From positions 62,001 to 126,000 of the forward strand of contig NZ_JARCJD010000013.1 in assembly GCF_028890115.1 (NCBI RefSeq): 64,000 nt of DNA, written 5' to 3'. The notes under the pieces are model-generated. The model worked only from the letters and a program-made list of their open reading frames with translations, was not told the DNA's origin and did no database searches. The first letter of the stretch is position 1, and every line of letters begins with the position of its first letter. Position numbers and translations under genes: made by a program. Below, in pieces: positions 16,412-39,234 of this stretch. The stretch is from Phaeobacter sp. QD34_24. Lineage in GTDB: Bacteria > Pseudomonadota > Alphaproteobacteria > Rhodobacterales > Rhodobacteraceae.

Positions 16412-17635
16412 CTAGCGATTCTCGCGCGAGCCTTTGGTCAGGCGCCCGATGGTGAAGGAGGTCCGCGGCGCATAGACGTAATTGGTGCGCTCTTCCGGGG
16501 TCGGGCGCGAGCGCATGCGTGACAGGCCGAAAAGGATCAAGGCCAGGTGTCCAAGCGCGATGAAGACGAACAGGGCTTTTGGTCCGAAGCCTTCGATCAG
16601 AGTGGAGGCGACATAGGGGGCCGCAATCGCGCCAAGGGCATAAAAGAACATCAAGGCGGCGGCCAGCTCGACCCGTTCTTCCGATGTGGCAAAATCATTG
16701 GCATGGGCGGAAGAGACGGAGAAAACCGGAAAGGCGGAGAGGCCGAACAGGCAGGCCATCAGCATGGTGGCTTCGGTGCTGAGGCCAGAGATCATGATGG
16801 TCAAGGCGCAGGACAGGATGGCGGCGACCGAGAGCCAGATCAGCACCCAGCGGCGGTCGATTTTGTCCGCAAGCCAGCCCACCGGGTATTGCGCCAGCGC
16901 CCCGCCCAGCACGAAAGCGGCAAGGAAAAAGGCGATCTGGTTCAAATGCAGCCCCACTTCGGTGCCGTAGATCGGGCCAACCATGCGGAAAGAGGCGGAG
17001 CCGACGGCGGAAACGATGACGCCCACGACCGCCAGCGGCGAACAGCGCCAGGCAAGGCCGGGCCGCAGGCGCGGTGCGGCGGGGGTCGCGGGCTGGCTGT
17101 TGCGGGTCAGGGTGAGCGGCAGCAGGGCGGCGCAGCACAGAAGGGCCAAGAGGTTGTAGGAGACATAGGAGGCAGGCGGCAGAACGGCGATCATCAGCTG
17201 CGCGGCGAGAGAGGCCGTGAGGTCGGCCAGCCGGTAGCTGCCCATCGCCCGCCCGCGGCTTTCATTGGTGACCTTGGCGTTCATCCAGGCCTCGATCACC
17301 GTATAGCAGCCGGCCACCGATAGGCCCGAGGCGATGCGCATGGTGGCCCAGGCCAGGGGGGCCTCGGTCAATGTATGTCCGAGCAATCCCATGGCGCCAA
17401 GGGCGGTGCAGACGGCAAAGGCGCGCGAATGTCCCACTGTTCCCATCAATCGGGGTGCCCACCAGCAGCCGATGAAAAAGCCCAGGAAATGCGCCGAGCC
17501 AAGAAGGCCGATTTCCTGTTTGTCAAATCCCATCGTGAGGCCCGAGATCGCATCAAGCGGGCCGACACCGCCTGCCGAAAGTTGCAGCAGAATGACGGAT
17601 AGAAACAGGGCGGCAAAGGATAGGATCAGGCGCAT
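16412..17635 (-). CDS. Major facilitator superfamily transporter
   Basis: The 407-aa product is a 12-helix inner-membrane transporter of the MFS class. It shows the loop 2-3 motif region (GCWWAPRLMGTVGHSR) and the corresponding mid-protein loop (GWLADKIDRR), then a polar C-terminal tail (TPEERTNYVYAPRTSF). It resembles the YcaD-like group of predicted transporters. The substrate cannot be deduced, and the neighbouring genes give no pathway hint. It is convergent with the flotillin gene and shares its terminator region. Confidence 0.88.
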   Translation of the reverse strand: MRLILSFAALFLSVILLQLSAGGVGPLDAISGLTMGFDKQEIGLLGSAHFLGFFIGCWWAPRLMGTVGHSRAFAVCTALGAMGLLGHTLTEAPLAWATMRIASGLSVAGCYTVIEAWMNAKVTNESRGRAMGSYRLADLTASLAAQLMIAVLPPASYVSYNLLALLCCAALLPLTLTRNSQPATPAAPRLRPGLAWRCSPLAVVGVIVSAVGSASFRMVGPIYGTEVGLHLNQIAFFLAAFVLGGALAQYPVGWLADKIDRRWVLIWLSVAAILSCALTIMISGLSTEATMLMACLFGLSAFPVFSVSSAHANDFATSEERVELAAALMFFYALGAIAAPYVASTLIEGFGPKALFVFIALGHLALILFGLSRMRSRPTPEERTNYVYAPRTSFTIGRLTKGSRENR

Positions 17636-17699: not shown

Positions 17700-18563
17700 T
17701 CAAACCATGAACTGGGTTTCTGTGTCAGAAACCGGGCGCTCCCGCGCGGCGGCGATCCTCTTGCGATGGCCTTCGCCCCTTGGGCCCAGCGCCGGGCTTT
17801 GCCCGGCGCTGGGCCCAAGGCTGTCAGGGGGCAGGGGCGCAGCCGCTGCATCCCGCAGGCGCGGGAGCCCTCGCGGCATGTTGTCGGGGGCCGCGCCGAC
17901 CCTGTGGCGGTCGGCATTCTGTGTCGAAACCTCGACCAAGGGTGCGCGCGGCGCGGGCTGCGTGATCTGCCACTGGCGCGGCGGCTGGGCGCGGGCGCGC
18001 AATCGTCCTAGCTGCCAACACCGATGGCCTCCATGATGGGCAGGCTGCATGGACCAGCGGCTTTCGATCCCCTGGGCGCCGCCGTCGCCCGGTGTCAGCA
18101 AGAGACCCAGTGGCGGCAACCCGTCCAGGGCCGGGGCAGCACCTGCCGCTGCGGCCAGATGCAGGCGGCGGACCGGGGCGATCGCTGGAGGGGCAGGGAG
18201 TTCGGCCACCACAAGCGGCGCGCCGCCGCTGCGCAGGGCCTCTTCCATGACCCATAGGACATCGTCGCCTCGGGACGGGGTAATCCACAGGAACCGGGCC
18301 GGATCTGCGAAGTCGCAGATCCCGTCGGGGTTCAGATGGGCGCGCTCCTGCGGGGAGGCGATCCACACCACGGGTCCCTGTGTCACACCAGCGAGCCATA
18401 GGGCAAAACTGCACCGCGCCCGCCCGCAGGCTTCATGCGCCCGTCCCCGCAGCAGGGAGATGGATTTCAGCAGGGTCAGGCTGCCCGAGTGCTGCCGTTG
18501 GCGGGGCAGGGATAGGGCGTGACCGGCTGCCAGAAGGCGGGAGGCATTGGGATGAATCGACAT
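17700..18563 (-). CDS. imuA: ImuA-like SOS protein (orphan, altered C-terminus)
   Basis: ImuA proteins are RecA-related accessory factors that work with ImuB and DnaE2 in damage-induced mutagenesis. Residues ~1-230 fit that family: VVWIASP, DDVLWVMEEALRSGG, and the CWQLGRLRARAQPPRQWQI segment seen near the end of the fold. A LexA box lies just upstream. The start is uncertain: the ATG read from 18578 abuts the operator, so the next one, read from 18563, is preferred. The last ~55 codons fall in a palindromic repeat element. No imuB or dnaE2 follows; the next gene is an MFS transporter, so this may be a relic. Confidence 0.65.
   Translation of the reverse strand: MSIHPNASRLLAAGHALSLPRQRQHSGSLTLLKSISLLRGRAHEACGRARCSFALWLAGVTQGPVVWIASPQERAHLNPDGICDFADPARFLWITPSRGDDVLWVMEEALRSGGAPLVVAELPAPPAIAPVRRLHLAAAAGAAPALDGLPPLGLLLTPGDGGAQGIESRWSMQPAHHGGHRCWQLGRLRARAQPPRQWQITQPAPRAPLVEVSTQNADRHRVGAAPDNMPRGLPRLRDAAAAPLPPDSLGPSAGQSPALGPRGEGHRKRIAAARERPVSDTETQFMV
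17738..17868. repeat. Composite palindromic element, copy 1
   Basis: The element is 131 bp long, bounded by GCTCCCGCGC (17738-17747) and its exact inverse GCGCGGGAGC (17859-17868). At its centre a perfect 20-bp inverted repeat, starting CCTTGGGCCC, flanks a 3-nt loop (17778-17820). A second copy with identical ends lies at 20924-21057. It covers the 3' end of the imuA-like gene. There is no T-run, so it is not a plain terminator. It resembles a MITE or REP-type repeat. Confidence 0.85.
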
Positions 18564-18578
18564 GAGGCAAGCTAGCAT

Positions 18579-20923: not shown

Positions 20924-21057
20924 GCTCCCGCGCCCGCAGGTGCATCGGCTGATGCCGATACCCCTTGGCGGCCTTGGGCCAGGCTCGGCGCGTAGGCGCC
21001 GAGCCTGGCCCAAGGGGCCGATGTCGCATGACACATGTGACAAGGCTGCGCGGGAGC
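20924..21057. repeat. Composite palindromic element, copy 2
   Basis: This 134-bp element has the same 10-bp ends as copy 1: GCTCCCGCGC (20924-20933) and GCGCGGGAGC (21048-21057). A perfect 20-bp inverted repeat with a GTAG loop lies in the centre (20972-21015); its arm begins CCTTGGGCC, as in copy 1, but then diverges. Smaller hairpins flank the centre. It lies between the convergent aldo/keto reductase and GlxA-type regulator genes and has no T-run. Confidence 0.88.
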
Positions 21058-39101: not shown

Positions 39102-39182
39102 TCCGGCGCGAAAGCCCACGGGCAACGGTTCGATAGGGTCGTTGCCCTGCCGCCGATGCGGCGCATTCAACAGGTCAAAAAA

Positions 39183-39213
39183 GAAACGCCCGGCAGGATC
39201 TGCCGGGCGTTTC
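39183..39213. terminator. Bidirectional terminator between MCP and icd
   Basis: GAAACGCCCGGCAG and CTGCCGGGCGTTTC form a near-perfect inverted repeat between the convergent chemoreceptor and isocitrate dehydrogenase genes. Both ends are A/T-rich, so it can serve both strands. Confidence 0.85.
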
Positions 39214-39234
39214 CTGTTTCAATAGGCGTCCCTA

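Follow-up and report, generated by a model that had tools for sequence, protein, structure and literature searches.

The window, which is the whole 64,000-nucleotide stretch of Phaeobacter sp. QD34_24 analysed here, carries two copies of what is, on balance, probably a new REP/REPIN-like (or TIR-like) family of non-autonomous palindromic elements, moved as single-stranded DNA and kept as two-way structures at the 3′-ends of genes. As we envisage it from sequence comparison, a family of the Roseobacter group, in which a pair of inverted units called L and R frames a central hairpin, would have spread in the form of hairpins of single-stranded DNA. A Y1-type (IS200/RAYT-like) enzyme, for which no gene is found in the genus today, would have moved them, reading each strand through the side arm on its 3′ side. 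The near-palindrome would be retained as a stable two-way 3′-end structure, acting as a transcript end or in mRNA protection, and the copies of about 131–134 nt probably derive by internal deletion from a longer element (mostly 280–325 nt) with a conserved structured core. This reading is favoured because of the family's ends, its shared sites, compensatory pairing, position relative to genes, a strand-by-arm wobble rule, the long form and a tnpA gene in the genome G018; it is weakened by the lack of a Y1 gene in the genus, of target duplication and of clean recent insertions.

Both elements in the window have the features that the preliminary description had given them, namely identical 10-nt ends in inverted orientation and a central hairpin with a perfect 20-bp stem, as seen in the sequence and in an inverted-repeat search (Table 1). 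The central repeats (17778–17797 with 17801–17820, and 20972–20991 with 20996–21015; each 20 nt and 100% complementary) top a list of 15 inverted repeats in the window. The end sequence GCTCCCGCGC occurs four times in the window, precisely at the four element ends, where 1.15 occurrences are expected and 3 of 100 shuffles reach four, and CCTTGGGCC occurs six times against 1.38 expected (0 of 100 shuffles). Folding gave z = -7.3 for copy 1 as DNA and z = -11.2 for copy 2 as RNA. The aldo/keto reductase gene stops 23 nt ahead of copy 2, and the counterpart of the convergent regulator on a syntenic plasmid of Phaeobacter sp. G2 is annotated as GlxA family; copy 2 has orthologous copies in the congeners G001, G002 and G003. 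The weak ImuA-like match of the ORF that enters copy 1 (32.7 bits) lies under the curated cut-off of 150 for NF033429, and the ORF has no Pfam match. In G001 the ortholog of this ORF (L058, 2087–2827, minus strand) has its stop codon inside its element copy. Elsewhere in the window, at 39177–39219, an inverted repeat of 20 nt (90%) that starts A-rich and ends T-rich resembles an ordinary two-way terminator.

Table 1. Coordinates of the two short-form elements, their parts and neighbouring genes in the window, and the loci of the long form.
Feature	Position	Strand	Evidence
Element copy 1, short form, model orientation +	17738..17868	+	R1 covariance model, 105.6 bits (not independent, as R1 was built partly from this copy)
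Copy 1 outer stem 5′ arm CTCCCGC, pairs with 17861-17867	17739..17745	+	sequence
Copy 1 L-type side arm	17746..17777	+	hairpin parsing
Copy 1 central hairpin, perfect 20-bp stem, 3-nt loop	17778..17820	+	inverted-repeat search
Copy 1 R-type side arm	17821..17860	+	hairpin parsing
Copy 1 outer stem 3′ arm GCGGGAG	17861..17867	+	sequence
Element copy 2, short form, model orientation -	20924..21057	-	R1, 113.8 bits
Copy 2 R-type side arm, CCGCCAAGGGGT-hairpin-GCACCTGCGG on - strand	20932..20971	-	sequence, ortholog comparison
Copy 2 central hairpin, perfect 20-bp stem, 4-nt loop	20972..21015	-	inverted-repeat search
Copy 2 L-type side arm	21016..21049	-	sequence, ortholog comparison
ORF, weak ImuA-like match, 3′ part enters copy 1	17700..18578	-	NF033429, E = 6.3e-8
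MFS transporter, downstream of copy 1	16412..17635	-	PF07690
Aldo/keto reductase, putative start codon	19848..20900	+	PF00248
AraC/GlxA-type regulator, convergent to reductase, putative start codon	21129..22100	-	PF12833, PF01965
Long-form loci	L205-L214, L185, L189, L083, L066, L149, L215-L244		

Searching the whole genome for the exact ends at a spacing of 90–120 nt returns only the two places in the window (reversed-pattern control, 0), while ends trimmed by 2 nt give 6 places (control, 0) and the central hairpin alone gives 4, of which 2 are new (reversed control, 1 per strand). R1, a covariance model built from eight copies, scores 24 places in this genome at 59 bits or more, each place counted once and 8 of them the model's own, so that further copies are indeed present and the suspected dispersed repeat family is real. 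Counted in the same way under stricter filters, R1 finds 20 places in G001 (at least 68 bits), 11 in G002 (at least 63) and 13 in G003 (at least 58). Matches at E 0.001 were confined to 6 of 61 genomes, namely four of the genus together with G034 and G008, and 7 of 248 genomes of the family (one per genus) match at E 1e-12, a strict cut of low sensitivity. A scan with a single pattern gave 52 stretches, mainly from Leisingera, Pseudophaeobacter, Ruegeria, Tritonibacter and Epibacterium, and R1 confirms most of those rescanned; a candidate in Armatimonadetes (L133) was discarded, as the model did not match it at E 0.01. For the short form, viral contigs held 0 pattern matches and blastn with one copy found none in phages. 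We found no description of such a family in the Roseobacter group in the literature that we searched, which was largely open-access.

The element can be drawn as a cloverleaf in which an outer stem encloses two variable side hairpins and the central hairpin; the preliminary layout was right about the ends and the centre and left out both side hairpins and the unpaired, conserved segments. In model orientation the left half reads N, CTCCCGC, an L arm (CCCGTC-hairpin-CTCCCG), TTGGGC and the central stem, and the right half GCCCAA, an R arm (GGCCGCCAAGGGG-hairpin-CACCTGCGGGC), GCGGGAG and N, giving a short form of about 131–134 nt. The sequences of the stems are free to vary, the unpaired segments being more conserved, and each position of the 5′ outer-stem arm CTCCCGC is at least 97% conserved among 90 parsed copies. 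Flanks outside the outer stem have a weak GRRGC/GCYYC consensus, and an extension of pairing into them was rejected, as they do not covary. Three loci (L183, L184 and L186) hold solitary R units with no L unit recognisable by eye, like REP singlets.

Parsing succeeded for 109 of 120 copies, and centres of less than 14 bp were later excluded, leaving the 90 copies used for partner-swap and wobble counts. In these, the 12 inner central pairs are Watson-Crick in 98.2% of cases with their own partner against 50.3% with a swapped one, the maximum among 1000 partner shuffles being 59.1%. In the two kinds of side arm, a hairpin score of at least 6 is reached in 72% and 61% of real cases and in 5% and 17% of shuffled ones, although the side-arm stems were found by a hairpin search and their pairing percentage is thus partly circular. 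The divergence of arms with compensatory change that had been reported for the two elements is seen both across the family and between orthologs: at one central pair of copy 2, A-T in the window is compensated as C-G in G001. One convergent site is common to the window's genome, G001, Leisingera, Tritonibacter and a Bugula-associated strain, with nine orthologous copies in all. At this site 94.9% of cells are paired, 9 pairs have changed on both sides (1 of 500 shuffles reaches that) and the covariation score is 0.168 against 0.081 in shuffles, 0 of 500 being as high; further pair types are no more numerous than in shuffles (463 of 500), and three helix 2 pairs vary solely through unpaired cells.

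Copies are shared widely between congeners, in that 21 of the 24 strong copies match a congener copy through at least one flank. We searched 18 sites in three congeners, most matches, though not all, being judged by eye. The element was read as present in all four species at the L027, L080 and L081 sites. Other sites are decayed, often with the centre gone (for example that of L016 in G002 and G003, and that of L020 in G003), and no recognisable element was seen at the L007 site in G003, at the L026 site in G001 and G003, or in G002 at the sites of L011, L013, L014, L017, L020 and L022. Presence and absence are thus polymorphic among relatives on this reading by eye, as had been anticipated. 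At the L011 site, G002 (L174) has a plain GC hairpin followed by TTTT where G000, G001 and G003 have the element. No clean recent insertion was seen among the congener sites compared, and gains are not separable from losses there by eye. Target duplications, which the preliminary description had also brought up, fared worse, with no clear excess at element boundaries: direct repeats average 1.94 against 1.80 with swapped flanks (120 copies). Such orthologous sites, where copies range naturally from intact through shortened and decayed to missing, offer material for experiments.

The position of the copies relative to genes is the REP-type location that had been proposed, being extragenic, close after stop codons and rarely between divergent genes, with copy 1 overlapping the 3′-end of an ORF. 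Among the 113 copies that have a called gene ending toward them, the distance after the stop codon has quartiles of 18, 23 and 32 nt, and 100 lie 5–60 nt after the stop. Convergent gene pairs flank 60 of 118 copies against 33 of 182 control gaps, and divergent pairs 7 of 118 against 58 of 182, where the control gaps are of at least 40 nt, the genes come from a home-made hexamer caller and the 118 copies include orthologs. The window's genome alone gives 12 of 30 convergent (p 0.014) and 2 of 30 divergent (p 0.004). The caller is imperfect, having missed the regulator convergent to the reductase at copy 2, which the annotation of the Phaeobacter plasmid does show, and the position counts are uncorrected there. 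Four independently annotated plasmid records of one site, from Leisingera and Parasedimentitalea, have it between convergent caspase-family and DUF4384 genes.

This placement after stops and the enrichment between convergent genes are what would be expected if the element were a two-way RNA 3′-end element, whose cloverleaf in the mRNA ends transcription or blocks 3′ exonucleases and whose dispersal is the side effect of old mobility. The GC hairpin with TTTT that stands in place of the element at the L011 site in G002 would agree with this. However, only 26 of 113 copies have a TTTT in the 40 nt that come after them on the sense strand, and the wobble rule, described below, holds for arms antisense to tandem genes, which is unexpected under selection on flanking mRNA. 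We regard this explanation as possible but doubtful.

Wobble pairs in the side arms follow a rule of strand and arm. The hairpin finder scored G.T and A.C alike, and in model orientation the left arms have 0 G.T and 32 A.C, and the right arms 42 G.T and 3 A.C, against 12 and 14 in the centre and 15 and 7 in the outer stem. If each side arm is taken in the strand that puts it 3′ of the centre, the distinct events number 54 G.T against 5 A.C, for which p = 2e-11 provided that events are independent; they are spread over 35 arm-sites, and a T.G that recurs at the base of the R hairpin accounts for some of them. In tandem settings, arms antisense to the gene have 17 G.T against 0 A.C, and sense arms just 6 against 3; site contexts were assigned by hand as a consensus, and the tandem labels come from the home-made gene caller, which mis-called at least window copy 2, here set by hand as convergent. 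Reading the wobbles instead in mRNA sense (tandem, 27 A.C and 13 G.T; convergent, 31 G.T and 22 A.C) looked contradictory and was abandoned, and the contradiction vanished once each arm was read on its own strand. The centre has 5 G.T and 3 A.C in 1656 pairs, and such near-perfect pairing without strand preference fits folding on both strands. The simplest reading of these patterns is that both strands fold as single strands, each needing the centre and its own 3′ arm. The rule favours single-stranded DNA over flanking mRNA as the form that would be under selection, with a two-way RNA role possible. It also provides a cheap comparative test between selection as flanking mRNA and selection as a folded single strand in its own right, which is an open question for extragenic palindromes.

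Solitary R ends were the route to a second module, CCTCAAGGG-N-CCCTTGACCC, which is found at 13 places in the window's genome, at 9, 12 and 8 in the congeners and at 3 in G018 (reversed control, 0), and in none of the other 96 of 101 genomes. In addition, blastn with one core returned 13 plasmid records, 12 of Leisingera and 1 of Phaeobacter. The module sits within a longer version of the same element that has similar ends: 27 of 39 long copies measured have both ends, 263–396 nt apart (280–325 in 20 of these), and 20 of the 39 have both TTGGGC and GCCCAA. Its core comprises GCTGAGA, a CAGGGGCAG hairpin and a three-way junction CCTCAAGGG..CCCTTGACCC. In a core alignment of 31 rows, 18 of 31 predicted pairs are doubly changed; the alignment takes 31 of the 46 known long-form places, core-insert copies and several others being excluded, and invariant letters of the module are partly a product of selecting the pattern. 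Twelve viral matches to the long-form pattern look coding and are missing the rest of the element, and 5 of the 12 are the same sequence; they were set aside as chance. By eye, the orientation of the core relative to the L and R units differs among copies. Intermediates with forked or enlarged centres, again by eye, occur at L023, L024, L026 and L079–L081 and suggest that short forms arise by internal deletion, the direction being inferred. Phaeobacter sp. G2 has a long form, cut on its 3′ side, at the reductase/regulator site of window copy 2, and another shared site has a long form in G000 and an intermediate one in G008. G018 is of another genus, and its three long-form cores, found by pattern (L219, L224 and L229), have CTCCCGC-type ends, with TGAGGTGCCTGAGGAACAG replacing TGAGAGGCG..CAGGGGCAG.

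A RAYT-like enzyme, which the preliminary description had suggested as the mover, was not found in the genus, and that suggestion survives only in part, through an IS200-type Y1 gene within two long forms of G018. PF01797 (Y1_Tnp) has 0 matches in G000–G003, G008 and G034, in a search positive for 10 of 61 genomes and for 5 of 14 control genomes. In G018, L258 has CTCCCGC-arm-TTGGGC at 883–913 and GCCCAA-arm-GCGGGAG at 1550–1597, and between these ends (883–1597, 715 nt) a hairpin, a core-like segment and a minus-strand tnpA ORF (977–1387). L257 (478–1266) has a left end, a near-identical core and tnpA at the same junction, with no recognised right end. Both ORFs score above the cut-off of the IS200/IS605 transposase model NF033573; they are broken, in that their Y1 domain match is internally gapped (in L258, 65–119 and 2–32 of 121), and the G018 tnpA reaches 16.3 bits against the REP-transposase model, whose cut-off is 80. 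A scan of 41 Y1 loci shows both element ends around L258 alone; at a third Y1 place in G018 (L091), a left end resembling that of the element lies about 1 kb off, beyond the gene's own bounds. Plasmid relatives of the G018 tnpA number 33 records.

The long form at L224 is continuous through the insertion point without tnpA, and in L258 the two halves of its joint CCCAATTCACT-TTCTTCAAATATACC are separated by a segment whose own last letters are TTCACT, which suggests that tnpA is maybe an IS200-type passenger with precise excision and insertion, or else the family's own enzyme. Judged from sequence, tnpA may be either, a passenger being an equally good account. Two similar cores with tnpA at one junction would fit a unit that moved together. 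On either account a carrier of the family would have Y1 single-strand chemistry available, which agrees with the wobble rule and with the missing target duplications, and the G018 tnpA is a candidate transposase for experiments.

A more far-reaching reading of the long form, which we put forward tentatively and think rather unlikely, is that it represents an unreported class of single-strand-folding mobile element, of which the cloverleaves would be deletion derivatives, mobilised in trans and kept by the host as two-way 3′-ends. The unlike inverted units would then be recognised one per strand, the core of about 170 nt would act in cis, and the element would originally have had its own Y1 transposase gene, as in G018 L258. 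It is improbable, in our judgement, that the long form is a putative structured non-coding RNA, ribozyme-like and with an activity of its own, of which the window copies are shortened relics. The conserved unpaired segments and the strong covariation in the core would suit such an RNA, as would the result that no Rfam family reaches threshold on the short copies of the window or on 12 long-form loci, but the inconsistent orientation of the core to the L and R units (by eye) and the many copies per genome speak against it. That the palindromes became perfect through a mutational process alone, by template switching in quasipalindromes, and are functionless would agree with a nearly perfect centre lacking strand preference but leaves the conserved unpaired segments, the strand asymmetry of the side arms and the 3′-end position unexplained, and is highly improbable.

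Set beside known systems, the family that we favour as REP/REPIN-like shares features with several. Like intrinsic terminators it places a GC hairpin after stop codons, two-way between convergent genes, whereas TTTT lies within 40 nt in 26 of 113 copies only. It has inverted ends in common with MITEs of DDE transposases and differs from them in showing no target-site duplication. The BIMEs of enterobacteria are mosaics of inverted units in extragenic space, and the family is likened to them by this mosaic, extragenic layout and not by the sequence of its units.

REPINs, in the portion of Bertels and Rainey (2011; PMC3116915) on which we draw, are inverted REP doublets that form hairpins and have compensatory changes. 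To the extent covered there, the likeness lies in two inverted units with a spacer, foldable as single-stranded DNA or mRNA, in the compensatory changes of the hairpin, in the extragenic position and in the occurrence of solitary units. The differences are that no RAYT was found in the genus here and that the elements are larger (about 131–134 nt, and mostly 280–325 in the long form), with a perfect central palindrome, two unlike units and about 24 strong copies. Two inverted units with a spacer, foldable as a hairpin or clover, are present, but the consensus segments contain no GTAG tag 5′ of a palindrome, nor was one seen by eye among the arms listed. The family is not classed as RAYT-REPIN because neither a RAYT nor this tag was found.

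Two further systems are known to us from parts of Di Nocera (2013; PMC3733652). As portrayed there, CGTC-tagged REPs are common in alphaproteobacteria, have no dedicated transposase and lie near 3′-ends. The present family likewise lies near 3′-ends, at convergent and unidirectional gene pairs, with inverted dimers and with CGTC in many L arms. It appears to differ, as far as that account allows comparison, in that CGTC is not regularly at the foot of the stem, in stems of variable length and sequence, and in having three arms and a closing stem of its own. A CGTC REP is marked by an unpaired CGTC beside a stem of 8–9 bp with a loop of 4–5 nt; in the present family CCCGTC is common in L arms at a varying distance from the stem. 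TIRtrons, in the same excerpts, are genes for tyrosine transposases flanked by long inverted ends that bear no relation to GTAG REPs, and TIR repeat families are their gene-less relatives. The G018 gene scores as IS200 type, and the family is likened to TIRtrons by this description and not by a match to a TIRYT protein. Within those limits, the broken tnpA inside inverted ends at L258, accompanied by gene-less relatives, resembles that arrangement. For the Roseobacter group, well studied among marine bacteria, the family would be an addition of REP/REPIN-like type that has a larger structured relative.
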